Source: a virus. Taken from it: 64,000 bases of DNA. Under the pieces are notes generated by a model. That model was given only the letters and a program-made list of their open reading frames with translations. It did no database searches and had not been told where the DNA came from. Position 1 is the first letter of the stretch. Every line of letters starts with the position of its first letter. A program made the position numbers and the translations under genes. Below, piece by piece: positions 315 through 58,700 of this stretch. The DNA is taken from the IMG/VR virus record IMGVR_UViG_3300042923_001106, positions 119,209-183,208 of that record; one strand, 5' to 3'.

Positions 315-1811
315 ATCGCAGAATATATCAAAGAGTTTGTTGACCCGTCTGGAGTTCATGAATCCTTATTCGTAGGGTATTTATGGAAAACTCCAAGTCT
401 ATACTCTAAATATAAAGTCCATAAAACAGAGAAGGACACATTTACAAAACCAGTATGGTATTTTTACTATTATATAGGAAAAGAAATGTATGAGAATGGT
501 ATGCGTACTTTTGACGACGCTTCTGTTTATTCATATCTTACTTCGAAGCCGAAAGAAAATGGAAAAAAATCATACTTTGAATATTACAACGAACACGGTG
601 GATGGTCCACTATTGAAGAGATCTTAAATGAATGTGATCCAGATAAAGGGAATGTAGACTATCATTTTAGTGAAGTTCAAAAATATGAAAGTTTGCGTAT
701 GTTTCAAAAGGAAGGCTTTATCAATGTACTGAGTTCGGATTTGATCAGCAAATTAACAAACATGAATCTGATCCAACTACAGCAATTCATGCAACTCAAG
801 GTTAAGTCTGGATTCTCACAAGTGAATTCTGGGGAAATAGTTATCTCGTATTTGGGCGATGATCTAAGTGAGACCATTAAAGAATTAAAAAATGGAGAAC
901 AGGCAGGAATTCCTTTATTTGAATCACCAAGACTCAATAGAAAAATAAACGGACAAAAACTAGGGAATTTAAATTACTTGATATTGCCTTCAGGTGTAGG
1001 TAAATCAAGTATATTGACAGAGAAAGCGGTAATGAGTCTATATGAAAATGACGAAAAAGGAATCATTTTTGCTAACGAGGAGGGGATAAAACGTTGGAGA
1101 TCCAGACTGCTTGTTACTGTGGCAGCAAGGGTATTAAAAAAGCCGGTCGCAAGAGACGTTGTTAATCGAGGATTTGGTGACGAGGTTGAGGCGATTCTGC
1201 ATGAAGCAAGAGAATGGATTGAATCGCATCGAAAAGAGAACATACTCTTTATCAATCTAAAGAAATATAGAATCCAAGACGTAATAAGTAATATTGAATT
1301 GTATAGGCCAAAGGGATACAAACACATATATTTTGATACTTTTAAACCTGATTTAACGCAGCAGATTGAAAGATGGTTGGCATTTTCTAATTCAGCGCAA
1401 TATTTGTATGACACTATAAAAGACGATGCCTACAATTGTCATTGTCTAGCTACTGTACAATTAAAAATTGGTAAAGAATTTAGATACATTGATCTTGATT
1501 GTATCGGAAAATCGGTCGAAATCTCAGAGGTCGGTGCTGTAATAATGGCCGGACGCTTAATGTTTGATGATGAATATAAAGTAGAAGGACACAAAAACAG
1601 GCTTAATCCGTACAATTGGGAGAAGGATGAACTCAACGGAAAGTGGTTTAAGAAAGAGTATAGACTTGATCCAGAGAAAAAATATCTAATTCTCTTCCTG
1701 CCAAAAAATCGTGAAGGGAGTGAAGATGAGCAGATCATCTTTGAAGTGAATTATGATTTTAACATATGGAGAGAAGTATCTCTAGTCCAAGTACCAAACA
1801 ATGGAAGGTAA
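315..1811 (+). CDS. DnaB-like replicative helicase (RecA-fold), probable AUC start
   Basis: Replicative helicase expected to unwind DNA at the phage fork with the primase encoded next. A Walker A motif GVGKSS lies at about residues 227-232, preceded by a linker and followed by a RecA-like core with a Walker-B-like strand (IYFDTF). It resembles the SPbeta YorI type. The first in-frame ATG is at 486, but the frame upstream reads as convincing protein (AEYIKEFVDPSG...) back to about 312, directly behind a strong AGGAGGGG at 301-308. No ATG, GTG or TTG exists there; AUC at 315 has ideal spacing (6 bases). I therefore infer a non-canonical start giving about 498 residues. If only the 486 ATG is used, the protein loses its N-terminal 57 residues. 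Confidence 0.8.
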   Translation: MAEYIKEFVDPSGVHESLFVGYLWKTPSLYSKYKVHKTEKDTFTKPVWYFYYYIGKEMYENGMRTFDDASVYSYLTSKPKENGKKSYFEYYNEHGGWSTIEEILNECDPDKGNVDYHFSEVQKYESLRMFQKEGFINVLSSDLISKLTNMNLIQLQQFMQLKVKSGFSQVNSGEIVISYLGDDLSETIKELKNGEQAGIPLFESPRLNRKINGQKLGNLNYLILPSGVGKSSILTEKAVMSLYENDEKGIIFANEEGIKRWRSRLLVTVAARVLKKPVARDVVNRGFGDEVEAILHEAREWIESHRKENILFINLKKYRIQDVISNIELYRPKGYKHIYFDTFKPDLTQQIERWLAFSNSAQYLYDTIKDDAYNCHCLATVQLKIGKEFRYIDLDCIGKSVEISEVGAVIMAGRLMFDDEYKVEGHKNRLNPYNWEKDELNGKWFKKEYRLDPEKKYLILFLPKNREGSEDEQIIFEVNYDFNIWREVSLVQVPNNGR

Positions 1812-1828: not shown

Positions 1829-2908
1829 ATGATGAGTGATGTTCTAACAGAAATAAGAAAAAAATTGTTACAAGATGACAATATACATACATTGCTTGAA
1901 AAGGCAGAGTGTGAAAATATAAAACGTCGAAGCAACAGGTATGAAGCAACGTTGCCAAGCAGGTTTAATTCAGATAACGATAGAGCCGTGCAAGTGTATT
2001 TAAATGAATCAATAACCTGTAAAATAAGAAGTCGAACCTTTTTAGGAAAAGGTATTTATGACTTAATTTCATATATTGTATTTGGATGTATAGAAATAAA
2101 AGAAATAAATAAATGCCTTCCGAAATCAAAAAGATGGATTTGTGAGCAATTGGGTTTTTTTGAGTATCTAAATAACTCATGGTATCATGAAAAGCCAAAG
2201 GAAGACCCGTTAAAATGGTTAAAAGATTTAAAGAGGAAACGAAACAAGGAAATTAAGATAATTGAAAATACCGTGCTAGATGATACTGTATTTAATCAGT
2301 ACATTATGTATCCTTACATTAATTATTTGAAAGAAGGCATCGACTATAACACGCAGCTCGAGTTTCAAATCGGTCTTGACCTAGTTAGTGAACGCGTAAT
2401 CTTTCCTATACATAATAAATACGGAGACTTGATTGGAATAAAGGGTAGAACTCTAGATCCAGATTACAAAACTAAAAAAATCCCGAAGTTTATGCATTTA
2501 TATAATGTAAATATGATTTCCGAGCTGTACAACTGGCATCGCGCGCTTTACTACATAATGGAGCAGAAAGAAATCATATTTTACGAAGCTGAAAAAACTT
2601 GCTGGCTAAGTACTCAATGGGGATATAGAAATTGCGTTGCTTTGGGGAGCAGTGAGATAACCGAGTGGCATGTCCAGATGGTCAAGGAACTTGGCTTAGA
2701 TATCCGAATCGTGTTGGGTTACGACAAAGATAAGGAAGCAAAGGAAATAAAGGAAGCAGCTAAGATGTTTGGATTCACTCACTCAATCAACGTTATGTGG
2801 GATGGGAGGAATGCATTTTCTGCAGAGAAGAAGCACTCTCCAACGGATTTAGGCAAAGATGCATTTGACCAACTATACAATGACAGGTATAAATACAAAA
2901 TAACATGA
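1829..2908 (+). CDS. DnaG-like DNA primase (Toprim)
   Basis: Primase that would make RNA primers for phage replication. The N-terminal third (to about residue 110) resembles the CHC2-type DNA-binding region but lacks an obvious zinc-binding Cys set. Next comes a primase catalytic-core segment (RVIFPIHNKYGDLIGIKGRT, about residues 190-210), then a Toprim domain with the acidic strand IIFYEAEK and the metal-binding GYDKDKEA. The helicase-binding C-terminal domain of bacterial DnaG is absent (359 residues in total), as in short phage primases. It starts 18 bases after the helicase stop behind AGGGAGGA, so the two are co-transcribed. The ATG at 1832 is an equally good start. A terminator follows. 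Confidence 0.82.
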   Translation: MMSDVLTEIRKKLLQDDNIHTLLEKAECENIKRRSNRYEATLPSRFNSDNDRAVQVYLNESITCKIRSRTFLGKGIYDLISYIVFGCIEIKEINKCLPKSKRWICEQLGFFEYLNNSWYHEKPKEDPLKWLKDLKRKRNKEIKIIENTVLDDTVFNQYIMYPYINYLKEGIDYNTQLEFQIGLDLVSERVIFPIHNKYGDLIGIKGRTLDPDYKTKKIPKFMHLYNVNMISELYNWHRALYYIMEQKEIIFYEAEKTCWLSTQWGYRNCVALGSSEITEWHVQMVKELGLDIRIVLGYDKDKEAKEIKEAAKMFGFTHSINVMWDGRNAFSAEKKHSPTDLGKDAFDQLYNDRYKYKIT

Positions 2909-3039: not shown

Positions 3040-3174
3040 ATGTTTGTCTGGTGGATCATTGGAATATGTATTTACTTCTGTTTAGTAGTACTTATCGCAA
3101 AATGCTGTGGAGGAAATACAACTTTCGATTATAAAATAAAACATAATAATACATATGGGGAGAATGAGCGATGA
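3040..3174 (+). CDS. Small membrane protein (44 aa)
   Basis: ATG at 3040 opens a 44-residue protein whose first 25 residues are a hydrophobic Trp/Ile/Leu/Val-rich helix, followed by CCGG and a polar, charged tail: a single-pass small membrane protein. GAGGAGG lies about 14 bases upstream, longer than usual. The stop overlaps the ATG of the next gene (ATGA), which supports coupled translation. No family recognised. Confidence 0.6.
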   Translation: MFVWWIIGICIYFCLVVLIAKCCGGNTTFDYKIKHNNTYGENER

Positions 3175-3503
3175 AGTTGTATCAATTGGGCAAAGGGGTA
3201 TATAAAACTTACCGGGAAACAGTTAAAGGGAATCAAAATATCACTCCACAACAAGCACAAAAGAAATTGACTCGAAACATTATACTGGCTTTTAAAGTTT
3301 CAAAAAGCAATAATGAAAATTTAAAGCAACGGTACTTCTATGGTAACTTGCACATACTCGTAGTTGGAAATAAAATCGTCTGGATCAAAAATATTAAGCA
3401 GAATGGCAACTGGTTTTATAAGGATCAGAAAAAGTATGATGAATTGAATGTGCTGCTTGGTATTGAAAATGATTCTGAAACTATTAATCAAAGAGTCAGT
3501 TAA
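3171..3503 (+). CDS. Hypothetical protein (110 aa)
   Basis: ATG overlaps the stop of the preceding membrane-protein gene, behind GGGGAGAATGAG. The protein is basic; its N-terminal 45 residues look helical and the middle (NLHILVVGNKIVWIKNI) predicts beta strands. A layout of helical N-terminus, beta-rich core and charged tail is typical of small phage proteins. I do not recognise the family. Confidence 0.65.
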   Translation: MKLYQLGKGVYKTYRETVKGNQNITPQQAQKKLTRNIILAFKVSKSNNENLKQRYFYGNLHILVVGNKIVWIKNIKQNGNWFYKDQKKYDELNVLLGIENDSETINQRVS

Positions 3504-3518
3504 TAAGAGGGAGAAAAC

Positions 3519-3749
3519 ATGAGTGAGGCACTAAAAAATGCCCTATACGATGTAGTAGAAAAAGCAAAGAAATACGATGCGATTATACATCTTAGAAAAA
3601 ATGGAGAAATCCATTGTGATTTTTGCGGTAAGTGTCAATGCGATGTTAAGAAGTTAGTAGCTGGACCAAGAGTTTTTATTTGCGACGAATGCATAGAACT
3701 ATGTGTTGAAGTTATTAAAGAAGAGAAAGTGAATGAGGAAGACAAATAA
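3519..3749 (+). CDS. Free-standing ClpX-type C4 zinc-binding domain protein
   Basis: A 76-residue protein consisting of a helical N-terminal 30 residues and the zinc-binding domain of ClpX: CDFCGKCQ...[17 protein letters not shown], with four Cys in two CxxC pairs. In ClpX this domain dimerises and docks adaptors and some substrates; here it has no AAA+ ATPase behind it (ClpX is about 420 residues). Expected location is the cytoplasm. The obvious inference is a phage protein that competes with or redirects the host ClpXP protease, but function is not shown by sequence alone. Start ATG at 3519 follows AAGAGGGAG. Confidence 0.8.
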
Positions 3750-4613: not shown

Positions 4614-4790
4614 ATGAAGACGCTATGTACACGTTGTAAAAAGCCGGTTTATAAAAATCGAAACCACTGGACAGATGTACACGGAAATCGCAAGCATATT
4701 CGCTGCCAAAAAGAAGAAGAACAGGAGCGCCGTGAACGAGATAAAAGAACATCTCGCATGGAGGCTCTACAAGGGGAGGATACCCAATGA
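4614..4790 (+). CDS. Small zinc-finger-like protein (58 aa)
   Basis: ATG 4614, eight bases after the preceding stop's AAGGGGAG. The protein has CTRCKK near the N-terminus and a later single Cys (HIRCQK) with His residues between, i.e. a possible CxxC...H...C zinc site, then a highly charged Glu/Arg helix. It ends in QGEDTQ, encoded by the GGGGAGGATACCCAATGA module that is also the next gene's ribosome-binding site. Function unknown. Confidence 0.65.
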   Translation: MKTLCTRCKKPVYKNRNHWTDVHGNRKHIRCQKEEEQERRERDKRTSRMEALQGEDTQ

Positions 4791-5014
4791 GTAAAAAAGG
4801 CGGAGATATACTTTGTGATCTCTGGAGCCGAGTCGATCAAGCGGATTTTGACACCATGATTACGGAAGCATTCAAGAAGATTCCTACGAAAATCCAAAAG
4901 AAATTCATTGCAGAAATTCTTGAAAATAATATTTGGGATTTGAACGGAAAGCCTGATGATAGAACTTTATCCGAGTGCTGGGAATTTGTTGATGCAGGGG
5001 AGGATACCCGATGA
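4787..5014 (+). CDS. Hypothetical protein (75 aa) with GEDTR tail
   Basis: Starts in the shared module (ATG 4787 overlapping the previous stop). Mostly helical and amphipathic, with FKKIPTKIQKKFIAEILE in the middle and an acidic C-terminus ending AGEDTR from the next module copy. No recognisable domain. Position in a translationally coupled cassette array is the main support for it being real. Confidence 0.65.
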   Translation: MSKKGGDILCDLWSRVDQADFDTMITEAFKKIPTKIQKKFIAEILENNIWDLNGKPDDRTLSECWEFVDAGEDTR

Positions 5015-5208
5015 ATAACTGTGGAGTATGCAATCATCACTTAGACATCAACCATGCCCAATTAAGACGATTCGAATTGGATGGGACTCTTACGCCGTAC
5101 CATATGGGTTGTGAGGGTGAGGCGCGGAAACTTAAGCCTTGTGTAGACTGCGGCCAACATCGACTATTATGCAGCGATTGTGCAGAGGTAGGGGAGGATA
5201 CCCAATGA
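5011..5208 (+). CDS. Cys-rich zinc-ribbon-like protein (65 aa)
   Basis: Contains several Cys pairs: CGVC near residue 4, CVDC around residue 44 and CSDC around residue 54, plus His residues, a pattern expected for one or two zinc-binding knuckles. Ends in VGEDTQ from the shared stop-RBS-start module. Likely a small cytoplasmic nucleic-acid- or protein-binding protein (inference). Starts at ATG 5011, overlapping the upstream stop. Confidence 0.68.
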   Translation: MNNCGVCNHHLDINHAQLRRFELDGTLTPYHMGCEGEARKLKPCVDCGQHRLLCSDCAEVGEDTQ

Positions 5209-5402
5209 ATATTATACCAATCATCAGAAATGAAAGAGGTAGCCTGACGCTTAATAGGGCTGATTTGGATATCATCATTGGTCAGATTATTGATATATGC
5301 AGAACAGAAAAGGAACTGGAATGGGTTCAAGATCAATTAATAGGCTGCATTGAATCCATGGTGGAAGGAAAATTGGAAGAGTTGGAGGATACCCAACCAT
5401 GA
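5205..5402 (+). CDS. Hypothetical helical protein (65 aa)
   Basis: ATG 5205 is placed by the shared ribosome-binding module; a longer in-frame reading from 5139 would overlap the upstream gene and is not needed. The protein starts with a beta-like MNIIPIIRNERG, then a helical stretch RADLDIIIGQIIDICRTEKE, ending in EDTQP from a module variant. Unknown function. Confidence 0.65.
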   Translation: MNIIPIIRNERGSLTLNRADLDIIIGQIIDICRTEKELEWVQDQLIGCIESMVEGKLEELEDTQP

Positions 5403-5602
5403 AATACGCGATAAAGTTCCAAGGCGAATATATGCGCCAAAGATACGGATCAGATTGCTTTACCGACGATCTTGGTTTCGCTGTCCTATTCGATTCTCGG
5501 GAAGAAGCTGTATCCGAACTTTTCGGTGATGAGCATGTCGTTGAAATACAAGAAGACGAAGAAGGCGGAATCTGGGAGGATACAGCAAATGGAATGGATT
5601 AA
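5399..5602 (+). CDS. Hypothetical acidic protein (67 aa)
   Basis: ATG 5399 overlaps the previous stop. The sequence KYAIKFQGEYMRQRYGSD...GFAVLFDSREEAVS suggests a small alpha-beta fold in which a FDSREEA-type turn precedes a helix, common in short phage proteins. It is acidic at its C-terminus and overlaps the following DUF551 gene by 14 bases, because the module variant GGGAGGATACAGCAA lies inside it. Unknown function. Confidence 0.62.
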   Translation: MKYAIKFQGEYMRQRYGSDCFTDDLGFAVLFDSREEAVSELFGDEHVVEIQEDEEGGIWEDTANGMD

Positions 5603-5906
5603 TTGCAGCGACAGAATGCCGGAACCGGCTCAACGTGTACTTGCAGTATTCCCAACAGGGTATAAGGGTGTCAGGCATATTTCCTTAGTCATTTACGTTC
5701 CGGCCAAATCAGTAAAGGCGGAAGATTTGTGGGACGACGACAGTGATTGTGTTGAATACGACGAAGAGAAGGATTGCTTCTACGTCGAAGAAGGTTGGTA
5801 TGAATCGTCTTACGAGTCGGAAAAGGATTGGCGTTTGAATTACGAGGTAACTCACTGGATGCCATTACCTCATGTTCCAGTGGCACAAGGGGAGGATAAA
5901 GGGTGA
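5589..5906 (+). CDS. DUF551-family protein
   Basis: Recognised by the family ends: WINCSDRMPEPAQRVLAVFPTG at the N-terminus and the closing VTHWMPLPHVP. DUF551 proteins are short phage proteins of unknown function. A reading frame from 5472 exists but overlaps the previous gene; ATG 5589 lies directly behind a copy of the shared module and gives the usual family length (105 residues). Ends in QGEDKG from the next module. Confidence 0.8.
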   Translation: MEWINCSDRMPEPAQRVLAVFPTGYKGVRHISLVIYVPAKSVKAEDLWDDDSDCVEYDEEKDCFYVEEGWYESSYESEKDWRLNYEVTHWMPLPHVPVAQGEDKG

Positions 5907-6163
5907 AACAGCCAAACATAAAAATATTCGGAAAAACTCATAAAGTCGTTCAAATCGAATTTAACGACGATGGCTTAATCCAAAAGATCATATATAAGGC
6001 AAATCAACACAATAACAGAATAGTATTCCGACGAGACGATATGGTGGATGAATCGCTCGTACGGAAATACAAAATCCACGAGCCAACAAATCATCCATAC
6101 CACAACTATGCTCATGCGCCTGATCTGGAGTCTTTATTGGTACAAGGGGAGGATACCCAATGA
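5903..6163 (+). CDS. Hypothetical protein (86 aa), GTG start
   Basis: GTG 5903 overlaps the DUF551 stop behind GGGGAGGATAAAGG. N-terminal strands IKIFGKTHKVVQIEFNDDGL and a middle IVFRRDDMVDESLVRKYKI suggest a small beta-rich fold. A His/Asn-rich turn follows and the tail is QGEDTQ from the shared module. No family recognised. Confidence 0.62.
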   Translation: MKQPNIKIFGKTHKVVQIEFNDDGLIQKIIYKANQHNNRIVFRRDDMVDESLVRKYKIHEPTNHPYHNYAHAPDLESLLVQGEDTQ

Positions 6164-6318
6164 AGCGTGAACTGATTATATCCGGTTCGGTAGAAAAATG
6201 TTGGGCTTGCAAGGGTCGAGGATATTCGGGATCTGAAAACCATCCCGAATGCGTAGTTTGTAGTGGATATGGTTGGTTGCCGAAGGGAGAAGAAGATGCC
6301 GAGACGCCATCCAGATGA
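6160..6318 (+). CDS. DnaJ-type zinc-finger mini-protein (52 aa)
   Basis: Two CxxCxGxG-type repeats, CWACKGRGY and CVVCSGYGW, as in the zinc-binding region of DnaJ, in a protein of only 52 residues with no J domain. Such mini-proteins are seen in phages; a client- or RNA-binding role is inference. ATG 6160 overlaps the upstream stop inside a perfect module copy, and the end overlaps the next gene by 23 bases. Confidence 0.68.
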   Translation: MKRELIISGSVEKCWACKGRGYSGSENHPECVVCSGYGWLPKGEEDAETPSR

Positions 6319-6451
6319 AGTTAAGCAAAAATGCGGACGATGCAGCCGAGAGAGATACGAACTCGTTAAATGTGGCGGAATATATGTATGTTGGAACTGC
6401 TGCAACTACCTAAAAAAGTCGGGGGATGATACCCATGGAACCAGTAAGTAA
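6296..6451 (+). CDS. Zinc-ribbon protein (51 aa)
   Basis: Two Cys pairs, CGRC and CWNC, separated by 19 residues containing a further Cys (VKCGG): a zinc-ribbon pattern. ATG 6296 is chosen because AAGGGAGAAG precedes it; a longer reading from 6263 lies inside the previous gene. The C-terminus reads SGDDTHGTSK, a drifted form of the GEDTQ tail, because the module here is GGGGGATGATACCCATGG. Confidence 0.65.
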   Translation: MPRRHPDEVKQKCGRCSRERYELVKCGGIYVCWNCCNYLKKSGDDTHGTSK

Positions 6452-15528: not shown

Positions 15529-17274
15529 TTGACAGAAATAGAAGAGAAGTATGAGAAATACTTTCAAAAACCAATGATTAAACCTACAAATGGCACAGAG
15601 TTTAAAGAAGTCGGGTTCAATCCTCATACGATCCAACATAAGCCCGATGATAGAGTGGTAATCATCGATGGTGATGGAAGCCCGAATTTCCCAAACCTAG
15701 CATTACAAAAGATAAGCGCATGGGAGAAGCGGAATGGTGTGAAAGAAGTTAAAATCATTAAACTTAAAGATAGACGTGTCAAAGGTATACTTTCAATCGA
15801 TCCAGAGTCAATTGAGGAACTTTATAAAATAAAAGATTACGATAGGGCTTATGTTAGTTTTATTTTCACAAGAAACAAGACTTTGGCACAGCAATTAATG
15901 GGGGAACTGATTAAAGAAGAAAAACTTTTTATTGACGGCAAGAAGATGAAAGTAAAAACGCCATTTTATATATCTAATATGTTCATTGGTGGTACAGGTG
16001 TTGACGAATACTTTGAGCTGCAAGAAGGTGACTTTAGATCAAGACCAAAGAGGATTACACAGTTACATTATGAGATTGAAAATATGTATCCTGATCATAC
16101 GCTTTATGAATCCGAATATGCGGATCTTAACGTGAAGTTTTGGTCTAATCCCGAACAATTCAAGATTCCAAAAAAATATACAAGTAAAATAAAACGGTAT
16201 GGATTAAGTCCAATTGATGGAACATGGGGGAAAACAAGCAAGGCAGTATCAATTAGCGACGATATAGTTGAGCGTTTTAATCATGCAAAGAATACATATG
16301 GTATTGAAGATGGAACAACATACAGAGGTTCAACAAGAGGAAATGGGTATTCATCAAAGGGATGTTCTCGAAAGTGTACGTTTTGCGTAGTTCCAGTTAT
16401 CCAAGGAGATATAGAACCGATGCATTACGGTCTGCTTGGTGTAATAAATTGGATTCTCCCCAGAAATTTATATCCTACAATGGATGAAATTGTACAGTTA
16501 TATAATGCCGGTTTGCTTAAGATGCGTCCACATGTATTTTGGAAGTTAAAAAAAGATAAGAAGACAAAAGAAATAAGTTATTATGTTGACCGAATTAGTG
16601 CATTCCTCACTATTTCAGATAACAACTTTCCAGCAGATCCAACTTGCTTAGAAAAAATGGATTACATGATTCTTAATGATATTGCTGTAAATTTGAATCA
16701 AGGTATGGATGCGAGACTGTTAACGGCTAAAGAACGTATTGACAAAAATGGTGTTCGTTATCCAAGTGGAACCGAAATATGTGAAAGGTTAAGTAAATTA
16801 TATTTCATCAACTTCACCGGTACATACAAACAGATGCACTTTAGTTGGGATTACATAGGTGTTGGCAGGATCGTGATTGAGGGAATCAGTCGATTAGTTA
16901 AGGAGTATGGGTTATCTTATTCAAACTTTGCTGTCTATTGTCTGTCAGGGTTCAATACAACTTTTGAGGAAGACTATAAACGCATTATGACTCTCAAGAA
17001 ATTAAAGATTGATCCTTACATGATGTTATTTAGAAATGTAGATGGCAGCGAAGGCACTAAATTTGATGGAACTCCACAAGACTGGCGAATGAAGCATTTA
17101 GCGCGATGGACCAATAATAAGATTCTGTTTAAAGCTGCACCGTTTGAAGAATATGATTATTATCTAAAAGAACTTGAAGAACGTTCAAAAGGATGTTTTG
17201 ATGAAGAAGTTGATAAGATGATAAGACTCGATGTGTTTGATTGGTTGACTACAGAATACATTAACCATGCTTAG
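15529..17274 (+). CDS. Radical SAM protein with N-terminal B12-binding-like domain
   Basis: The 4Fe-4S motif CSRKCTFC (C279, C283, C286) follows GYSSKG, as in radical SAM enzymes that often carry an N-terminal cobalamin-binding domain; residues about 35-130 (VVIIDGDGSPNFPNLALQKI...) resemble such a domain. The TIM-barrel follows, with MDARLL and a C-terminal extension. These enzymes use SAM to make a 5'-deoxyadenosyl radical; substrate here is unknown. TTG 15529 follows AAAGGAGTATGATGG. It lies two genes before a Dam-type DNA methylase. A nucleic-acid modification role is possible (inference); tRNA, peptide or DNA substrates cannot be told apart by sequence. Confidence 0.8.
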   Translation: MTEIEEKYEKYFQKPMIKPTNGTEFKEVGFNPHTIQHKPDDRVVIIDGDGSPNFPNLALQKISAWEKRNGVKEVKIIKLKDRRVKGILSIDPESIEELYKIKDYDRAYVSFIFTRNKTLAQQLMGELIKEEKLFIDGKKMKVKTPFYISNMFIGGTGVDEYFELQEGDFRSRPKRITQLHYEIENMYPDHTLYESEYADLNVKFWSNPEQFKIPKKYTSKIKRYGLSPIDGTWGKTSKAVSISDDIVERFNHAKNTYGIEDGTTYRGSTRGNGYSSKGCSRKCTFCVVPVIQGDIEPMHYGLLGVINWILPRNLYPTMDEIVQLYNAGLLKMRPHVFWKLKKDKKTKEISYYVDRISAFLTISDNNFPADPTCLEKMDYMILNDIAVNLNQGMDARLLTAKERIDKNGVRYPSGTEICERLSKLYFINFTGTYKQMHFSWDYIGVGRIVIEGISRLVKEYGLSYSNFAVYCLSGFNTTFEEDYKRIMTLKKLKIDPYMMLFRNVDGSEGTKFDGTPQDWRMKHLARWTNNKILFKAAPFEEYDYYLKELEERSKGCFDEEVDKMIRLDVFDWLTTEYINHA

Positions 17275-39458: not shown

Positions 39459-40397
39459 ATTAAGAGAAATAATGCTAGTTTCGCAAACGAAGTTTATCAT
39501 CAATATGACTGGTGTTATCAAAAGTTTATTATAGAAGGTTTAAATCATCAAGAAATGGCTCAAGAAGCAGGAACGACTGCGAGAACAATTAAGAAATGGG
39601 TGGTCGAAAAACACAGACTTAAAGGAAATATTAGAAGGAAAGTCAAAAGACTCAATCAATTACAAGAGGATTTAATCATCGGGTCAATTCTTGGTGACGG
39701 ACATATCACCAACGAAAAATTCAAACCTATATTCATAGTATCTCATGCGGCAGACGAGAAAGATTATTTGTACTGGAAACACGATATATTGAAAGATTTT
39801 TGCAACAAGGGTCCAAGATTGATTGAGGCACAGATAAAGCCATTTGGTGATAAAGAGTATTTGTCTCAAGATGCCTATAGGATTAACACCAGAGTACAGG
39901 ATGATTTAATAAAATATCGTGATATGTCAATAAAAGAAATAGTAAAAAAATTAAATGAATTTTCATTCTCTATTTGGTTATTAGACGACGGACATAGGAG
40001 TAGTGGATGTTGGGACTTATGTGTTGCTCCATACAGTGCCGATGAGGTAAATGAAATCTTAAATGTAATACATGAAAGATTTAAACTAGAATGTAAAATA
40101 AAATCAGACAATAGGTATATATTGTTTACAGCAAAGTCGAGCAGGGATTTGGATCAAATAATTCTAAAAAATATTCCTAATGAACTAGATGTAATAAGGA
40201 AAAAGATAACAGAGAAAGATATTGATACTGAAGCAAATTACTTTTGGGTTACTTATAATAATGAAGAGATTGGATTGAATAGGTTCTGTCGTGAAAACAA
40301 GATTGTATATTCAGCAGCTAGAAAACTTTATTTTGAAGGTGTGACTGATGGAATCGCTCTGATTGAAAAATGCTGTGCGAAAACTAAATATAAATAA
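39459..40397 (+). CDS. LAGLIDADG homing endonuclease with N-terminal HTH, probable AUU start
   Basis: Two LAGLIDADG-type motifs: LIIGSILGDGHI and FSIWLLDDGHR, with the acidic residues needed for metal-dependent cleavage. The N-terminal helix-turn-helix (HQEMAQEAGTTARTIKKWV) would recognise DNA. The first ATG (39555) is inside that HTH; the frame continues upstream as convincing protein (YDWCYQKFIIEGLNHQEMAQ) to AUU 39459, 10 bases after TAGGAG. No intron or intein is visible, so it looks free-standing between the phosphatase and dnaE. It may spread by cutting phage genomes that lack it. Confidence 0.78.
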   Translation: MKRNNASFANEVYHQYDWCYQKFIIEGLNHQEMAQEAGTTARTIKKWVVEKHRLKGNIRRKVKRLNQLQEDLIIGSILGDGHITNEKFKPIFIVSHAADEKDYLYWKHDILKDFCNKGPRLIEAQIKPFGDKEYLSQDAYRINTRVQDDLIKYRDMSIKEIVKKLNEFSFSIWLLDDGHRSSGCWDLCVAPYSADEVNEILNVIHERFKLECKIKSDNRYILFTAKSSRDLDQIILKNIPNELDVIRKKITEKDIDTEANYFWVTYNNEEIGLNRFCRENKIVYSAARKLYFEGVTDGIALIEKCCAKTKYK

Positions 40398-40464: not shown

Positions 40465-43400
40465 TTGCGATACAATAACTATCATAAACATACCCATTAC
40501 AGTAACATCGTCACACCTGACTGTATTGTTAAACCGATAGATTACGCAAAGCGAGCAATCGAATTGGGTCACACTACGATTTGTACAACTGAGCATGGCT
40601 ATGCTGGGAATGTATTTGAATATTATGATGTAACTAAACAGCATAACCTTAAACTTATCTTTGGAGTAGAATTTTACTATGTCAACGACCGCTTTGAAAA
40701 GGACAAATCGAATACTCACTTAATGATTCTTGCTAAGAATAATGAAGGTAAACGAGAGTTAACTAGACTTATTACGGAATCGAACAAGACTGGATTTTAT
40801 TATAAGCCTCGTATAGACAAACAATTAGTGATGGGTCTAAATCCTGAAAATGTTCTAGTTACATCCACTTGTATAATCAGTTATGTGGGCAAATGTGAAG
40901 ACTACGAACAGAACTTTGTATTGCCATTTATGAATCACTTTAAGTGTAACTTCCTGCTGGAGATTCATGATAATGCCCATAGAATGCAAGTAAACTATAA
41001 TAAAAAAATCCTTGCCTTACATGAGAAATATAATATTCCCTTAATTCACGCTACTGATTCTCATTACATATATCCTGAGCAGGATAAGGATCGAACACAG
41101 TTCTTGAATGGTAAGAATATTTACTATGAAGAAGAAGAAGGATTCATACTTGATTATCCTGATTCTGAAACAATCTTTAAACGGTATGAAGAGCAGGGTG
41201 TTTTCACAAAAGAACAAGTGGAGCAATCTTTAAATAACACCCTGCTCCTCGATGATTTTGAAAATATCAAAATGGACAAAGAAATAAAGATGCCATCAAT
41301 TTACCCGAATTGGTCGCATGAACAAAAGGTTAAAAAACTAAAAGAAATAATCACAGAGGAATGGAAAAAGGACAAAAAAGAAATCAATCCAAAACGTGTC
41401 GGTGAATATCTTGATGCAATTCGATTTGAAACAAAAATTATTGAAGATACATCAATGGAAGATTACTTTTTGCTCAATTATGATATCATCAAACGGGCAA
41501 AAGAGAACGGAGGGATATTGACTCGTACAGGTCGAGGATCGGCACCGAGTTTTTACATAAATAAACTCCTTGGCTTTACAGAAATTGACCGATTAGAAGC
41601 ACCAGTAACACTTTATCCAACTCGATTTATGAGTACATCTCGTATTCTTGAATCTAAAAGTTTGCCAGATATCGATTTTAATACATCTCAACCTGAAGCA
41701 TTTATTAAAGCAGCCATAGAGATACTTGGTGAAGATAATGTTTATTACATGACAGCTTACGGTACAATGCAAGCAAGCGAGGCGTTCAGAAACTATTGTA
41801 GAGCTATTAACTTAAAAATGGACGATTACAATGATGTCGGAAAAAATCTTGACCAGTATAGGAATGATGATAAATGGAAAGACATTATCAAAGAATCAGA
41901 GAAGTTTATAGATGTTATTGATAGCGTTTCTCCACATCCTTGTGCGTTTATCCTATTGTCTCAACCTGTATCTGAAGAGATAGGAATTATTAGAGTTGGA
42001 AGTAAAGAGAAGGTTAACTTTTGTGCATTGATAGACAGTACTACATCTGACTCTTGGAAATATCTGAAGAATGACTTTCTCACAGTAAGTGTATGGGAAA
42101 TTATCGCTAACACTTATAAGATGATTGGAATTCCAATACATAATATTCGTGAATTATCTCGCTTAGTTGAAAGTGATAAGCGAGTTTGGGATTTGTATGA
42201 AAATGGATTAACTGTTACACTCAATCAAACAGGAACGGATTCAGGGACACCTCAAGTTATGCAATATAAACCTAAGAATGTACGAGAATTAACTGGTTGG
42301 GTCAGCGCAATTCGACCATCATTCGTATCTATGAAGCATTACTTTTTAAATAGACAAGAATTCTCATACGGGATTAAAGAACTCGATGACCTTTTAATCG
42401 AAAGTGACAACTTTATTTTATACCAAGAGAATATAATGCGTGTTCTTGTGTGGGTAGGGTTCCCCGAAGATGAAACATACGGGCTATTAAAAGCCATCGC
42501 CAAAAAGAAAGAAGGAATCATTGAACCGATTTATGAGCGGTTTATTGATGGTTTCGTAGAGAAGACAAATAGCGAAGAGAACGCCGAGTTAGTTTGGAAG
42601 ATAATAGAGAATTCTGTGGACTATGGTTTTAACTCTTCGCATGCTTACTCTGTAGCATTGGACAGTCTTTATGGAGCATACCTTAAGGTAAATTACCCAC
42701 TTGAATATTTTACAGTAATACTTACGAAATACGAGGATGACACAGAGACAACAAGTAAAATTTTTAAAGAATTACCATACTTCAGTATAAGTATATCACC
42801 AATCAAATTCAGACAATCAAAAGCACATTATTCACCTAATAAAGAAAAAAATACAATTTACAAAGGCATTAAAAGTGTTAAATATCTGAATGAGAAGATT
42901 GCCGAGGAGTTGTTTGAACTTGGCAAAAAACATTATGATTCATTCATTGATTTACTCATTGATATTACCGAGAGCACATCGGTAAATACAAGGCAACTTG
43001 ATATTTTGATAAAACTGAACTTTTTTTCTGAATTTGGTCAAAACAATGAATTGTTGCAAATATACAATGAATTTACGTCAATGTACAAAAAAACATACGT
43101 TGAGAAAACAAAAGTAAAACGGATAGGAGAGTTAAGGCAACGAGAAGATGAGATTCGAAATATGTTACAAGATAAAACTTTACCTATTCACGAATCCATC
43201 ATGTTCCAGAAAGAAATGCTTGGGTATGCTGATTTAAGGTTTCCAAACTCTAAAGATTGGTTTGTTATCGTTGATATCGATAAAAAGTATACTCCTAGAC
43301 TAACCGTATATGAATTATTAACCGGCGAAGAAAAATCAATCAAAGTAGAGAAGAAGAAATTCTTCATCGGAAATGGAGAAACCTTAAAAATAGGTGATAC

Positions 43401-43515
43401 AGTCAAGATTACTCAGTCAGAGATGAGACCGAAGAGCAAACTTGTAGATGGAAAATGGGTTAAATCTGAAGATCAGTTTGATGAGTGGTTGGTGTCGTGC
43501 TCAATCAAGAGATAG
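40465..43515 (+). CDS. dnaE: DnaE-type DNA polymerase III alpha subunit
   Basis: C-family replicative polymerase, SPbeta YorL-like. Domains: PHP at residues 1-200 (YHKHTHYSN, TTEHGY, FGVEFYY), then the palm with GRGSAPSFYINKLLG (about 357), the catalytic PDIDFN (about 400) and a third Asp in LKNDFLTVSV (about 534); SHAYSVALDSLYGAYLKVNYP is the fingers helix-hairpin region near 720. At 1016 residues it is shorter than bacterial DnaE and has a compact C-terminus. TTG 40465 behind GAAGGAGGTAGAAAA. A promoter and the homing endonuclease gene precede it. Confidence 0.9.
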   Translation: MRYNNYHKHTHYSNIVTPDCIVKPIDYAKRAIELGHTTICTTEHGYAGNVFEYYDVTKQHNLKLIFGVEFYYVNDRFEKDKSNTHLMILAKNNEGKRELTRLITESNKTGFYYKPRIDKQLVMGLNPENVLVTSTCIISYVGKCEDYEQNFVLPFMNHFKCNFLLEIHDNAHRMQVNYNKKILALHEKYNIPLIHATDSHYIYPEQDKDRTQFLNGKNIYYEEEEGFILDYPDSETIFKRYEEQGVFTKEQVEQSLNNTLLLDDFENIKMDKEIKMPSIYPNWSHEQKVKKLKEIITEEWKKDKKEINPKRVGEYLDAIRFETKIIEDTSMEDYFLLNYDIIKRAKENGGILTRTGRGSAPSFYINKLLGFTEIDRLEAPVTLYPTRFMSTSRILESKSLPDIDFNTSQPEAFIKAAIEILGEDNVYYMTAYGTMQASEAFRNYCRAINLKMDDYNDVGKNLDQYRNDDKWKDIIKESEKFIDVIDSVSPHPCAFILLSQPVSEEIGIIRVGSKEKVNFCALIDSTTSDSWKYLKNDFLTVSVWEIIANTYKMIGIPIHNIRELSRLVESDKRVWDLYENGLTVTLNQTGTDSGTPQVMQYKPKNVRELTGWVSAIRPSFVSMKHYFLNRQEFSYGIKELDDLLIESDNFILYQENIMRVLVWVGFPEDETYGLLKAIAKKKEGIIEPIYERFIDGFVEKTNSEENAELVWKIIENSVDYGFNSSHAYSVALDSLYGAYLKVNYPLEYFTVILTKYEDDTETTSKIFKELPYFSISISPIKFRQSKAHYSPNKEKNTIYKGIKSVKYLNEKIAEELFELGKKHYDSFIDLLIDITESTSVNTRQLDILIKLNFFSEFGQNNELLQIYNEFTSMYKKTYVEKTKVKRIGELRQREDEIRNMLQDKTLPIHESIMFQKEMLGYADLRFPNSKDWFVIVDIDKKYTPRLTVYELLTGEEKSIKVEKKKFFIGNGETLKIGDTVKITQSEMRPKSKLVDGKWVKSEDQFDEWLVSCSIKR

Positions 43516-44726: not shown

Positions 44727-44746
44727 GCATATGTGCTTTTTCTTGT
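44718..44746 (+). terminator. Rho-independent terminator ending the replication block
   Basis: AGCACATA (44718-44725) and TATGTGCT (44730-44737) with a GGCA loop, followed by TTTTCTTGTT. The stop codon of the preceding small gene is inside the stem. It separates the replication genes from the recombinase gene. Confidence 0.82.
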
Positions 44747-44764
44747 TCCTGTTGATATTCTACA

Positions 44765-44794
44765 TTTACTCATAAATATTGAGTGGTGTATAAT
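44765..44794 (+). promoter_or_regulatory. Putative promoter for the serine recombinase
   Basis: TTTACT (44765-44770), an 18-base spacer and TATAAT (44789-44794), just after the terminator and about 47 bases before the recombinase start. Confidence 0.6.
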
Positions 44795-44840
44795 GGTAAT
44801 TAATATGTTTCATAAAAAACAACAAGGAGGCACTGAAGTT

Positions 44841-46346
44841 GTGTCGCAATACACTGTAAAATATGTAGCAATATATGTACGAAAATCTAGAGGCGATTTA
44901 GAGCACGATTTGGCAAAGCATCTAGCAGAACTAATCAAGCTGTGTGAAGAAAATAACTGGACTTATGCAGTTTACAGTGAAATAGGAACATCTGATTCCA
45001 TTGAATTACGCCCTGTTATGAGCGAATTGTTGTCAGATGTTGAACTTGGCATGTTCGATGCCGTCTGCGCGGTTCACATCGACCGTTTGAGTCGTGGTGA
45101 TGCAGTGGATAGAGCCAAGATACAGAAAATTTTGGGGAAGACAGAAACCTTATTAATAACTCCTCAAAGAGTATATGATTTCACAAACGAGACTGATTTG
45201 CTTATGGCTGAATTTGAAGGCTTAATGGCTCGGATGGAGTACAAACAAACATCAAGAAGGTTTAAGCAAGGAAAAGCACGAAATGCAAAATTGGGATTCT
45301 GGTCAAATGGAAAACCGCCGTATCCATATTATCGAGACAGTGAAAAAAAGAAAGCCGTTGTAAATCCAGATTATCGACCAGTATACAGAAGAATGGTCGA
45401 CTTGTGTATGCAGGGTTGGACATTTACAGATATTGCGTGGGAGCTAAACAAATTAGCCATTCTTTCACCCAAGGGTGGAATGTGGAGTCATGTAGTAGTT
45501 GGTAATTTGCTTCAGGATGAAGTTCATCTAGGACATATTGTGGTAGGAAAAACAACAAAAACGGCTACCGGAGATAAGATTCACAGAGAAAAGGAAAAAT
45601 GGATTGTATACAAAAATTGTCATGAAGCCGTAAAGACGCAAGAAGAGCACGATAAAATTATTTTTTTAACAAACAGAAATAAAAGATCGAGTAAGGCCAG
45701 TAGAGCAGGTAAGCAAGTATTTTCTGGATTACTTTATTGCGCCTGTTGTAGTAAAGCGATGCAAATTCAAAAGCAAAAGAACAGACCAAATGACTCAGTA
45801 CGATCTTGTAGAACGCATGATGCTTTTGGAGTCAGATGTATTAATTTAGGCGGAAGTGTTACAGCAATAAATGAAGTAATTTATAATGCACTAATAAAGA
45901 AGAAAGAATATTTAATTAAAGCAATCAATGAAGGAATATCAGATGATGATACTAATGAACTTCAACAGATTGCATCAACTAAGTTGAAAGAAATAAAACT
46001 CCATGAAAAAAGAATTGAGAAAATTTATCGTAATCAAGAAAGTATGCTGTACTCAGAAGAAGAAGATGAGAACGATGCAATATTCCGTGAAAGATTAAAA
46101 AAAGCAAAAGAAGAATTAAAGCTACTTGAGGACGAGTATACTTCTTTGTCCACCCAAATTGAACGAGCACTCGACACAAGGAACGAAGATTTACTTCTAA
46201 ATATTGAGGACGTTTTGAAACTACTCAACAAGCCATCAATCGAAGATAAAGAAAAAAATCGTGCATTGAAAAGTATCATTAACAGGATAGAGTGGAAAAG
46301 ATTAAGGATTGATGAACAGCCGACAATATATGTAAATTTTCTTTAG
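44841..46346 (+). CDS. Large serine recombinase (SprA-like integrase)
   Basis: Integrates and excises the phage. The resolvase domain has the catalytic Ser16 in YVRKSRGD, then DSIELRPVMSELL and HIDRLSRGD; it resembles SPbeta SprA. The recombinase domain follows (LGFWSNGKPPYPY), then a zinc ribbon (LLYCACCSKAMQ...CRTH...C) and a C-terminal coiled coil (residues about 385-470). 501 residues is normal. GTG 44841 is used (AAGGAGG at 44824-44830); ATGs from 44733 lie in the promoter. It has its own terminator-promoter arrangement, and inverted repeats follow directly. Confidence 0.85.
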   Translation: MSQYTVKYVAIYVRKSRGDLEHDLAKHLAELIKLCEENNWTYAVYSEIGTSDSIELRPVMSELLSDVELGMFDAVCAVHIDRLSRGDAVDRAKIQKILGKTETLLITPQRVYDFTNETDLLMAEFEGLMARMEYKQTSRRFKQGKARNAKLGFWSNGKPPYPYYRDSEKKKAVVNPDYRPVYRRMVDLCMQGWTFTDIAWELNKLAILSPKGGMWSHVVVGNLLQDEVHLGHIVVGKTTKTATGDKIHREKEKWIVYKNCHEAVKTQEEHDKIIFLTNRNKRSSKASRAGKQVFSGLLYCACCSKAMQIQKQKNRPNDSVRSCRTHDAFGVRCINLGGSVTAINEVIYNALIKKKEYLIKAINEGISDDDTNELQQIASTKLKEIKLHEKRIEKIYRNQESMLYSEEEDENDAIFRERLKKAKEELKLLEDEYTSLSTQIERALDTRNEDLLLNIEDVLKLLNKPSIEDKEKNRALKSIINRIEWKRLRIDEQPTIYVNFL

Positions 46347-52743: not shown

Positions 52744-55700
52744 TTACACCCCCTTCAACAGCGGCCTACCGGGGATTTTGAAAAAGTCCCAAGCAGAACC
52801 ATTACCAATTTCTTTGATCCCTTCGCCTATACCAGTTACAACAGCTAGATACAACTCTTCATCATGCGAAACAAGGTAATACACAATACTCTGAGAGGTT
52901 ACAGCTTTTGGAAGCAACGCCCCAACAGCGTAGAAATTGGCACGGTTTGGTAAGGCGATTTGAGGTTGTGAAGACTGAACGCTGTAGTTCCCTTGTATTA
53001 CTTTTGTCCCTGATAGAAACTTCACGGAACTGCCTACGATACCGTTTTCAAATGTGCCTATGCCGTGAGCGTAGTAGTAGTTCTCTACAGGAATGTTTTG
53101 TCTAAAAACGTTAGGAACAGGCAAGTACCCACTACCTATTGAATCATCAAAACTCTCGCTCATTAATCTCCATGTTTCCTTGTTCAAAGGAAGTCGGGAC
53201 GCCATACCAATATATGAAGCGAATGCGCTAGGCGGGACACTTCCAGTACCCATAGTGTGAGCCATTATGCCGTTGCTTTTAGCGAGAACTTTTACGGTCT
53301 TCTCTACACCTTCCGCCGCTATACCCTGATACGGTACGTGTTGATAGTTCAAAGACACAACGTCACTATTCGCACCACCACCAAGATTCCGGTATGAACG
53401 AGCCGGGAACTGAAGCTTGGTTTCCTTGGTCTCTGGGCGAACTTTTACGATGTTACTTTTGACATAATCGACGTAATCCGCAAATGCAGGTTTAAAACTT
53501 ACGTAGTCGGTATACAAATTTGAAGGGATCGTCGGGCCTGATGGATAAGTAGAATGCACTAATACATAAATCTTTTGGTTTTTTGTGATGAAATTTCTGG
53601 TCGGCCATGACGTGTCTATACCATTAATAATTAGCGAAGGTGACGAAGAAGTATTAACCCAGCCCCCATCGCCGCCAATCCAAGTTTGATCTACATCATC
53701 CCATACTTTTGCGATAGCTCCATACGACAAAACTCCGCCGTTGTCTCCACTTCCATATCCTACCCAACTAAATGTTAACCCTCTCACAGCAGCCTTCAGT
53801 TGCGACAGAGACATTCCAAGGTGCGACAAGTCAAATTCATAAATATCTTGAGGGTAATACCCTTCAATTGAAACTGGCTGAACATTTAAAATCCCATCTT
53901 GTTTGCTTATATTGTCATAAGTACCTTGCCAGTGTTCCGACGAGGAAACTGTCGGTGGTTGATTTACACTTGCCAATTGTCTCCATAGCACCCTATTAGG
54001 ATTTTCGAACATACTGCCTGCGGATTTCCCCAAGTAGTTCAGTGTTAGATTGCTTTTGCGTCCCGGCGTCCAAGTTGTAGCAATGGCACCTTCTTGAAAT
54101 TTGAGTCGACTAATTTTTGCCGTTTTAGTTATACCGTCCGTTGTACTAACGGATTCGACTATAAATTGGATAGAACTGTTGGATATGCTATTAAATGTTA
54201 TAGAAATACGTCTTCGCGGCCCAGTTGATATTGCGTCAGCGGATTTAATGATGGAATTTAAAGGTTGTCCCCAAATATAGCTGTATATGTCACCCCCCGT
54301 TACAGAATCGATATCATACGAAAGAGTGTATAGAGTGTTGCTTTTAATTGGGATGTTCATATTTAATCGCTTGCTTCTGTCTGAGGTCATAGTCACCAAG
54401 AGAGTCCCCAATGAGTCAAGGTCAACCCCAGCGTCCAGAGAGATACCGTTAGCGTCAACAGGCAAGGCTTGATTCTGCGTCAATACATTTTCACTCACGA
54501 CCGGGAACGGGTTTTCCGGTTGGAGGACGGTGTATCCGGTTTCTGCTGTGTTTAGTGTAACTTCGAGTTCTACATAGTCTGAACGTATTGATGAAGCTGT
54601 TCCTGTAGGCCCGTCGGATGCCTCAGCGAAAGCAAGGAAGTGAACGAAACCATTTATGTCTATTACATCCCAGCTGTTAATAAGGTCGTTAAACACAACT
54701 TGCTGCACCTTACTAACTGAACCTAGAGTACTAATACCCGTAGAGTTTTGCCACCAAGCGCTATTAGCTTCTGTCCAAATCGCAAGAGTCGCCTTGTTCC
54801 CTAATGGACCAGAACCATACCCCCACCAATTACACATAATAGTACTCAAATTTGCCTTCAACTTCGCTACCTTCGCTGCCGTGTCAACACAATCCGCAAA
54901 GAACCCTTCGCCATACTTGTCCTCCATAAGACGGATAAGATTGAAGGAGAATATGTGTTGAGAAATATTGCCGCTTACGCCAGTGATGTTGGTGGATACA
55001 AGACCGTCTAGGGTCGAAACGTATCGATACTCTAAAGTATCACGTTCTACCCAATTGACTGAAGAAGGTACTTGTAAAGCGCTATTAGCAACAAATTTGA
55101 ACGTGTGCGGTATAGCATCCGTACTCCCTGATACTTTCCCCACAAAGTTCGCCTTAGCGCTCACCGTCGCCCCTGAGACATTCCGCTGACCATTAACATA
55201 GGCGTCGAGTACATTCGTTGCTACATTGTTGATCCCCTTACCCGGAGGAAACACTGCCGAATAGTCAATCTTGATATTGGTCGTAGTCACGGTTGGCACT
55301 GTCGTTATGGTGTAGGTGACTTCTTTCGTTCCCAGATTTGACCATGTACCTGCGATACCCGTTGCGGTTACGGTTGGGGCGGACGAGGATGCTGTGGTAT
55401 CAATGACCCACCCATTAATATAACCAACAGGAAGGGCAAAAGCGTTCATATTTAACGATGTTGCTCCGTTGATGGACAAAATAGTATCACTGTAGCCGAC
55501 GCTGAAATCACTCTTTAAAACCCTCACAGTATCAGAAGGAAAAAACTGACCATTATTTTGAATATTGATGATCTTGCTCAGCCCATCGCCGTCTGTTAGA
55601 ATCCTAGTGATTCCAGTATCAGAATCCAAGACGCCTGTTATAACTCCATAATCATTCCGAATCTTGATGGTATCCCCAACCGCCCATACGCCTTCAGTTG

Positions 55701-58700
55701 CTTGCGTTACCTTGATGTGTCCTTGAGGAGTCTTCAAGGCTTCTACAATGTCCGAACAGGTTTCAACCGTTAATGCATCTGAGAAAACAGAACGGTTTGA
55801 ACTGAACTGAGTCCCGTTTACACCGTCGTAATGGATTAGACTGTTGTTACCAAGGTGAGAGTTGTAGCCTTGGTAGTTCGCCGGAATTAACCAGCGTCCA
55901 AATGGAACGAATGGGTTGAAATCTGCTCCTTTTGTTAGTTGCCAGTTCGAGTAGGTGATGATTCCGGGCGCGCTGTTATTTAAATCGACAAATACGCTGC
56001 TTGCATCGACGGGAGTTGTAAATGTAAACGGACAACTAAACGCTTCCGGCACATACGATAGCACGTTGCCGTTTGCATCATGAAAGATTAACCTAAAGTA
56101 TGCGTTTGTACTACCGCTAACATTGAAAGTATATTGTTGATTCGGCAAAACACTAACCGTAGGCCCGGAAGGTTGCCATGCCGTTGTCGCATTCAGTGTC
56201 AACGCATAAGGCCCCGTCACGTTAGCATTCGCGTGCAACGTATCTGGCCGGTCCGGCAGCAAGTTCTCCACAATATTCGGCAGCGAGTCTACATATGGAA
56301 ACAAGGCACCAATTTTGTCTTCGCCAGTCCAGTTCGGATCGACGTCGATAAGGTTGTATGTTGCTTGGTCGATTTCGTAAATTGATACCTCATCAATATA
56401 CGCGGACAGTCCACCAGCACCTCCAGCACCTACTAAGAGCCGGAATCCATTCGTCGTGACCGTGTTTGAGGTATCTATTGTAATTTTGAGCAATTGCCAT
56501 GACCCGATTTGCGCAACACTTGCTTGACTTAAGTAGCGTGTATTGAATGTGCCCCGGTCCCTTATTGATATTTCTACGCCGCCGTCGGTGTACGACTCGA
56601 TATACACCCACGCTAACACCAGATATCTCTTACCTGTATCCAATTTATACGAATAATCTCTGTATACATAGCTACCAAAATTAACATTCGGCAAAACTTT
56701 CACAGACGTGTTTCCTGAACGTTTAACCGTCGTGGACAATTCGGGAGATACTCCGGAAAAATTCCACCCGATAAGGTTTTCAAACCCCCCATCCATACCT
56801 AACAAGTTCTTCAAGTCCACAAATGTCCCATCCGCTCTCTTCACATGCACCGACTGCAAGTCTTGCGGTACGCCAATTGGTGCGCGTTGTAACCCGTAGG
56901 TCTCGTTCACGGTCGTTTTCGTGTCCTTTGTCGTAAGGGTTCCGCGAAGCAAGCTGTCCAAACTACCCTCAAGGAGACTCTGGTAATTCACGCCTGTAAG
57001 CGAAACCTTGTGGCGAAGATCGATGATGTCATCAGCGTTTACGATGTTGGAGTATATTCCGTCGGGACGGTCAGATTGTTTCCATACTGCATAAGAACCC
57101 CAAAATATCGCTGAGTTTTTCGATACTGTTACATTCATGAGCGTGGCGCTTTTAGTCTCGTTGATAACTGATGGAAAATCTGTGTTCAAGATATAAATTT
57201 TATCCCCTGTTTTGAATCCTGCCGTGGACGCAACGGGTAAGTCAAATGGTACACCCATCGTAAATGCGTAGTCTGCTCCCGTTATAATAGTACTAGTGTA
57301 ATCCCGCGCCCCGTTAACATTATCCGCACGATACCCACCAGAGTTCCGACGCTTTACACGGAAAAGCGGAATGGCGTATACGTAGCCGTCGATTGTTTTC
57401 AGGGCGTCTTTGGAGGTTTGGGAGCCGTCGCCTGCCACCCACAATCCTTTATCCTCCAAGGCTATACCTTTAGTACTGGAGTAACCATTAATGGCGTAGT
57501 ATGATCTTGCAGATTCGGTAAAAAACGCAGAGTGCTTAAAAAAATCAGCTGACCCAGACCATATAGGAGCATTATTTAGTGGAACGGAATTTCCACCTTG
57601 TGCCTGAACAACAGGGTTTGGTATTGAACTGTCGATACCATCTCTATAATTTTCAAAATCCACCCCGGCGACGGAACGAATACGCCACTGCATAACTCCT
57701 TTTTGTCCCACATGTGGAAACCATGCTTCAAGAAATACAAGATCGTCGCGAGTCCCATAGGTTGGAGGAGCCGGAAGCAATACGCGATTCCACTCGTGAG
57801 TACCCATTTCTGCGTTAGCCGATTTTACTAACAGTTTGTACCCGTTGATAATGGCGTTAAATGGATTTGTCATTAAGTTGTTAGGGTACAATGAAAAGAA
57901 GTTTGATGGGACAATTTGTAATGCTCCGTCCACAGGGAGACTGCCTGAGCTGAATCCTTGAAAACCTGAGTTTAGATTGGTTATACCACTATGAACTTGT
58001 TGTCTTACAAGTTCAGCACTCGCCAGTGCTACGACATCTATATCCGCACTAGTTGCTGCTCCTGATAGATTAAAAGTATTAATATGAGTCCAAGCCGACC
58101 CATCATAACGATAATACGTATTATCTGCCAAGACCTGAACGGCATCTCCCAATTGAGGAGACGGATATGTTGTTACAATATCTGCGTATGTTGCAACCGG
58201 TGTTTTATAGTTTAGTTTCGTAGTATTAATCGCTGTATTAAGATTGCTTATCGCATTCGTCGTATTCGTTTGACGTGTTAATTCTTGTGATTGTCTTGTC
58301 GTTTCGTTGGTCTGTCTAGCCGTTTCATTAGTAGATCTTGCTGTTTCTGCTGTACTACGAGTATTCTCATTGGTATCTCGTTCATTTTCCGCTATCACAC
58401 GTGCAGACTCAACAGACACTCGATTTGCTTCAACTGATGCCCTCGAATTTTCAGCATTTACTCTTGCTGACTCCACACTTACCCGATTATTTTCCGCTGT
58501 CACTCTAGCCGATTCATTATTCTGTCTCGTTGTTTCATTCCCTGCTCTTGTTGTTTCTGCTAAGGCCCGATTCGATTCTTCTGTTGCTCTTGCACTCTCA
58601 GCAGACGCTCTTCCACTCTCCATAGTTACTCTGGAGGATTCAGCGCTTGCCCTCGCAGTCTCCGCACTCACTCTCGAACTTTCTGCATTTACTCGATTAG

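Follow-up and report, generated by a model that had tools for sequence, protein, structure and literature searches.

A small gene of a large temperate phage from a Gram-positive host encodes a ClpX docking domain fused to a short conserved helix

In Escherichia coli the zinc-binding domain (ZBD) of ClpX is a docking platform for adaptors and for some substrates; its deletion abolishes the RssB-dependent degradation of sigma-S, while ssrA-tagged proteins are still degraded (PMC7226468). Cross-linking shows the free ZBD to be a dimer, and adding it in trans inhibits RssB-dependent turnover of sigma-S by ClpXP in vitro (PMC7226468). Residues F16 and I46 of E. coli ClpX contribute to a pocket in this domain, and their mutation abolishes the stimulation of lambda O degradation by trigger factor; this region of ClpX coincides in part with the site for lambda O (PMC7804408). 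If the proposal developed below holds, the phage SPO1 protein Gp53, a modulator of ClpCP, would be comparable to the protein described here as a small phage protein acting on a host Clp unfoldase, but Gp53 is a 25 kDa protein that targets ClpC and has been described as adaptor-like rather than as a duplicate of a domain of the unfoldase itself (PMC6873191). Another parallel is offered by mycobacterial ClpC2, a partial homologue of the Clp unfoldase ClpC1 to which the role of a molecular sponge for a ligand has been ascribed, but it is a cellular protein of the ClpC and not the ClpX type, and its binding partners are a drug and the promoter of its own gene (PMC10030653).

Stand-alone ZBDs are already a named kind of phage protein. 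The E. coli type, to which RefSeq gives the name "ClpX C4-type zinc finger protein", occurs in prophages and phage-plasmids such as P88 (110 aa) and D6 (107 aa), and a relative is present in 219 of 5426 complete E. coli genomes (approximately 4%). Further stand-alone ZBDs are encoded by BUCT566 (66 aa, Pseudomonas), by Cr30 (Caulobacter) and by several metagenome records; these phages are unrelated and their ZBDs bear differing extensions. One temperate-phage-like record (L035) contains two different stand-alone ClpX-ZBD genes in tandem (4953-5285 and 5367-5702), with an integrase-like gene adjoining. Our literature search found no paper on the function of a phage stand-alone ZBD.

The window, by which we mean the whole stretch of 64,000 nucleotides analysed, corresponds to positions 119209-183208 of a 183,208-bp virus record (IMGVR_UViG_3300042923_001106), and a second metagenome record (L002) is 99.99% identical to the window region over 7.8 kb. 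The open reading frame at 3519-3749 (+) consists of 76 codons with an ATG start and its own stop, and encodes a ClpX-type ZBD preceded by a helix (Table 1). A gene for a large serine recombinase (44733-46346) and the replicative helicase, which is related to those of the Goe phages, fit an SPbeta-like temperate phage, as expected, and the best match of the endolysin in a plasmid collection is from Paenibacillus (41%), which may be a weak hint at the host. The gap that separates the gene from its upstream neighbour is so short that the two are probably co-transcribed, as judged from this spacing. The ZBD gene is short and lies amid many accessory open reading frames, and its neighbours differ between most of the records in which relatives occur.

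Table 1. Features of the ZBD gene and of the genes upstream of it (window coordinates)
Feature	Position	Strand	Evidence or remark
Coding sequence of the helix-ZBD protein (stand-alone ClpX zinc-binding-domain protein), 76 aa	3519..3749	+	Open reading frame, Pfam, relatives, dN/dS
Shine-Dalgarno-like GAGGGAG, 5 nt 5' of the ATG	3507..3513	+	Read from sequence
N-terminal helix, residues 3-25, absent from ClpX	3525..3593	+	DSSP on AlphaFold2 model; residue conservation
Helix core K15-A16-K17-K18-Y19-D20	3561..3578	+	K15, A16, K18, Y19 and D20 invariant in the helix-ZBD family
ClpX-type C4 zinc-binding domain, residues 33-69	3615..3725	+	Pfam, PDB alignments, Foldseek, ClpX column comparison
DnaB-like replicative helicase	486..1811	+	54% identical, over the full length, to SPbeta-like phages Goe11/12/14 (Spbetavirus)
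DNA primase	1829..2908	+	3' end 610 bp before the ZBD gene
Upstream neighbour, 110 aa, phrog_15690	3171..3503	+	Ends 15 nt 5' of the ZBD gene

The sole Pfam match of the protein is to zf-C4_ClpX (PF06689; residues 32-68, E = 7.7e-14, 51.7 bits against a curated gathering cut-off of 27 bits). A sequence search of the PDB (E<=1e-3) returned ClpX chains only (1ovx, 2ds5-2ds7 and full-length ClpX), of which 1ovx was the best match (1.5e-14). The zinc ligands are C33, C36, C55 and C58, and the 18 residues between the two pairs match the spacing in E. coli ClpX. Folded as a single sequence the protein gave a pLDDT of 63 (low confidence), compared with a mean of 84 in an AlphaFold2 model built with an alignment of 18 relatives, which has a helix at residues 3-25 and block means of at least 90 over residues 31-70. 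When this model was compared with the PDB by Foldseek, ranks 1-8 were all ClpX or ZBD entries, the crystal ZBDs 2ds5-2ds8 superposed with an rmsd of 0.5-0.6 Å over 38-39 residues, and no other fold was significant (next match E = 1.9). Since the alignment behind the model included ClpX sequences, the 0.5 Å fit is not fully independent but supportive; the sequence evidence, which is independent of the model, itself points to a ClpX ZBD.

Taken together, the Pfam, PDB-sequence and Foldseek matches carry the similarity far beyond a generic CxxC knuckle, a possibility that is thereby ruled out. A sequence-only reading of this DNA had already proposed a ClpX zinc domain and suggested superposition on the ClpX structure as a check; the identification is upheld, with homology that extends over a real ClpX ZBD in both sequence and predicted fold. 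The resemblance to the N-terminal ZBD of ClpX (PF06689; PDB 1OVX, 2DS5-2DS8) includes the C4 ligands, the CxFCGK...ICDEC pattern and the hydrophobic pocket positions as well as the fold. In contrast to ClpX, however, the window protein has no AAA+ domain and possesses its own 30-residue N-terminal extension with the conserved helix, and the AGP loop is missing from part of its family. Two extra cysteines inside the zinc domain, C39 and C41 (codons 39-41, 3633-3641), are present in the window protein and in no other member of the family.

The same reading had the domain standing without the ATPase, and this agrees with our searches: no match to AAA_2 (PF07724) or ClpP (PF00574) was found in the 183,208-bp record, its L002 copy or the records of two relatives, all of which may be incomplete fragments, while control genomes were matched. 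A companion ClpX or ClpP encoded by the phage was thus sought and rejected for the records searched. The 183,208-bp record contains a single zf-C4_ClpX match, and the window protein scores 41 bits against the NCBIfam ClpX model, for which the cut-off is 359; with 76 residues, and no PF07724 match in the record, it does not qualify as ClpX by the AAA+ ATPase either. As neither a ClpX ATPase nor ClpP is encoded in the record, any such partner must be derived from the host. The protein had no match among the PADLOC models of known anti-phage defence at E<=0.1, and a role as a defence-system protein was accordingly ruled out.

Proteins of 76-96 aa in which a K-A-x-K-Y-D helix immediately precedes a ClpX ZBD were assigned to one family, to which the window protein belongs and which was gathered by scans of viral contigs with progressively larger alignments. 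When identical and near-identical copies are counted once, this helix-ZBD protein is found in 12 distinct virus sources (the window, L178, L180, L181, L182, L183, L184, L185, L186, L187, L188/L189 and L190). All members have in common K15, A16, K18, Y19, D20 and E30 in addition to the ClpX ZBD pattern, and in the 1.78 Mb of DNA searched the helix motif occurs solely in front of the ZBDs of this family. Pairwise identity averages 0.60 both for the helix (residues 9-23) and for the ZBD, but 0.36 for the linker and 0.17 for the tail. Three of the four scorable close pairs have dN/dS values of 0.17 (L184/L190), 0.19 (L184/L188) and 0.24 (L187/L190), the fourth (L186/L187; dS 0.12, dN 0.08) is too close to judge, and silent sites are saturated in the L181/L182 pair. 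Most close pairs of the family are, by these values, under purifying selection, and since the helix is as well conserved as the ZBD it appears to be as important to the protein.

The earlier picture of a genuine ZBD without its ATPase stands, but it overlooked this second, equally conserved part, which is not found in ClpX, as well as the occurrence of the family in several large phages and the phage ZBDs named in RefSeq. The E. coli proteins share with the window protein the small size and a C-terminal stand-alone ClpX ZBD, but they belong to phages of Enterobacteria and their N-terminus of about 60 residues is unrelated to the KAxKYD helix. Consistent with this, the match of the window protein to phrog_6797 covers only positions 62-105 of the 107 in the profile, that is the ZBD, and leaves the N-terminal 61 positions unmatched; the match to PHROG 12435 is also through the ZBD only. 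In a scan of genome contigs for chromosomal copies in Bacillota, the matches were dominated by ordinary ClpX proteins from other phyla. As a family of large phages, the helix-ZBD proteins appear to be undescribed in the libraries searched.

F35 and V65 of the window protein align with the pocket residues F16 and I46 of E. coli ClpX (F17 and position 47 if the initial Met is counted). In a column comparison with ClpX, the first pocket position was invariably F and the second always hydrophobic in 17 of 17 stand-alone ZBDs. The A-G-P loop, invariant among the cellular ClpX sequences sampled, is present in the window protein but has been lost in several relatives (TNH in L181; AAK or TAK in the L184 group), as it has in many phage ClpX proteins. 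The L178/L179 relative (5959-6249), identical in two metagenome records, has serine in place of cysteine at the fourth zinc ligand (CDES). In view of this substitution and of the loss of the AGP loop, retention of the ClpX-specific surface is uneven across the family.

On the basis of these comparisons we suggest that the phage protein probably interferes with, or re-aims, protein destruction in the host. The ZBD would act in trans on host ClpXP, where it may compete as a decoy for adaptors or substrates, or pair with the ZBD of ClpX itself; the capacity for either would be expected of the phage domain because free E. coli ZBD inhibits adaptor-dependent degradation and dimerises (PMC7226468). 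The sequence-only reading had likewise suggested binding to ClpX or its adaptors and a redirection of proteolysis, which this precedent makes plausible. The conserved helix would probably bind a phage- or host-specific partner, and the net result would be a host ClpXP that keeps its basic activity but whose adaptor-dependent degradation is blocked or redirected. We regard this form of the proposal as evenly balanced between being right and wrong. In its support, and making it plausible, are the identity and predicted fold of the ZBD, the retained pocket residues, the lack of a ClpX ATPase or ClpP in the record, the conservation of the helix, the low dN/dS values and the E. coli precedent; against it are the loss of the AGP loop, the ligand change in L178/L179, the position of a short gene among accessory reading frames and the variable neighbours. 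Somewhat less assured is the broader idea that large phages of Gram-positive bacteria possess a dedicated version of the ClpX docking domain which works in trans and, joined to a target-binding helix, serves as an adaptor or decoy that re-programmes host ClpXP, the ZBDs of unrelated phages having arisen convergently for the same use. Should the proposal hold, phages would be using a piece of the host protease to control protein turnover, a new way of steering ClpXP that would add to the few known phage modulators of Clp, and the 76-residue protein offers one obvious target complex together with a conserved helix that can serve as bait for its partner.

A gain of function, as opposed to a block, would result if the phage ZBD paired with a ZBD of the ClpX hexamer by domain swap and the helix delivered a selected target to be degraded, which might be a restriction factor of the host or a repressor of the phage. 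In favour of this, the conserved helix is joined to the ZBD by some nine residues that vary between members (0.36 identity), as would be expected of a tether; the ZBD is known to mediate dimerisation (PMC7226468), and SPO1 Gp53 provides an example of a phage protein with adaptor-like action on ClpC (PMC6873191). No common target gene, however, adjoins the ZBD gene across most of the family, and the stand-alone ZBDs elsewhere bear different extensions, so that their targets would have to differ, and we consider such an adaptor unlikely. A similarly low likelihood attaches to re-use of the fold as an ordinary zinc finger that binds protein or nucleic acid during replication or transcription of the phage and no longer has any link to ClpX. 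This would suit the members that have lost the AGP loop and the location of the gene 610 bp after the primase gene, the stand-alone ZBDs of Pseudomonas phage BUCT566 and of P88 being also near replication genes, but early phage genes commonly lie near replication genes, and very diverse members keep the pocket positions and the ClpX-specific C-[SD]-F-C-G-K-x-Q ... I-C-x-E-[CS] pattern.

The same gene proximity in the window, P88 and BUCT566, together with the binding of the phage lambda O initiator by the ClpX ZBD (PMC7804408), might suggest a decoy that keeps host ClpXP away from a phage protein, such as a repressor or an initiator of replication, and is not a general modulator of host proteolysis; proximity is weak evidence, and we judge this very improbable. 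Many large phages carry full-length ClpX, from which a drifting remnant might survive after loss of the ATPase part, but the reading frame has a start and a stop of its own and is preceded by a ribosome-binding site, the helix is absent from ClpX, the family is found in 12 distinct sources, close pairs are under purifying selection and the record holds no ATPase debris. A remnant is thus largely refuted and hardly credible, and a broken or clipped clpX was ruled out by the start and ribosome-binding site, the extra conserved helix and the purifying selection.

A search for a conserved operon partner identified none common to most of the family. Five records (L180, L184, L186, L187 and L189) contain a small protein, "KTKSVGMDRMREMM", with the conserved stretch T.KTKSVGMD.MREM, encoded one or two genes 5' of the ZBD gene; it is absent from the window. 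A gene-junction element, GGGGAGGATACCCAATGA, is repeated in the window at 4773-4790, 4997-5014, 5191-5208, 6146-6163 and 6422-6439 (five matches with <=2 mismatches, compared with 0.03 expected by chance). Several unrelated small proteins end in ...GEDTQ or ...GEDTR because the Shine-Dalgarno sequence and start of the next gene sit inside the last codons of the preceding one, and an open reading frame of a relative (L171, 6465-6920) also has the C-terminus RGEDTQ. Elsewhere in the window, a 2312-aa open reading frame at 52744-59682 (-), tail-fibre-like by position, contains a long run of degenerate heptad-like repeats (ESSRVSAETGRVGVENARVTAESNR...) and, within it, a 266-aa open antisense frame (58307-59107). 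A 280-aa homing-endonuclease-like reading frame (39555-40397, +) lies just 5' of a gene similar to that for DNA polymerase III alpha (40465-43515) and, judged by eye, is a possible homing insertion. A 581-aa phage protein encoded at 15529-17274 (+) contains a radical-SAM-like cysteine motif (SKGCSRKCTFCVV).
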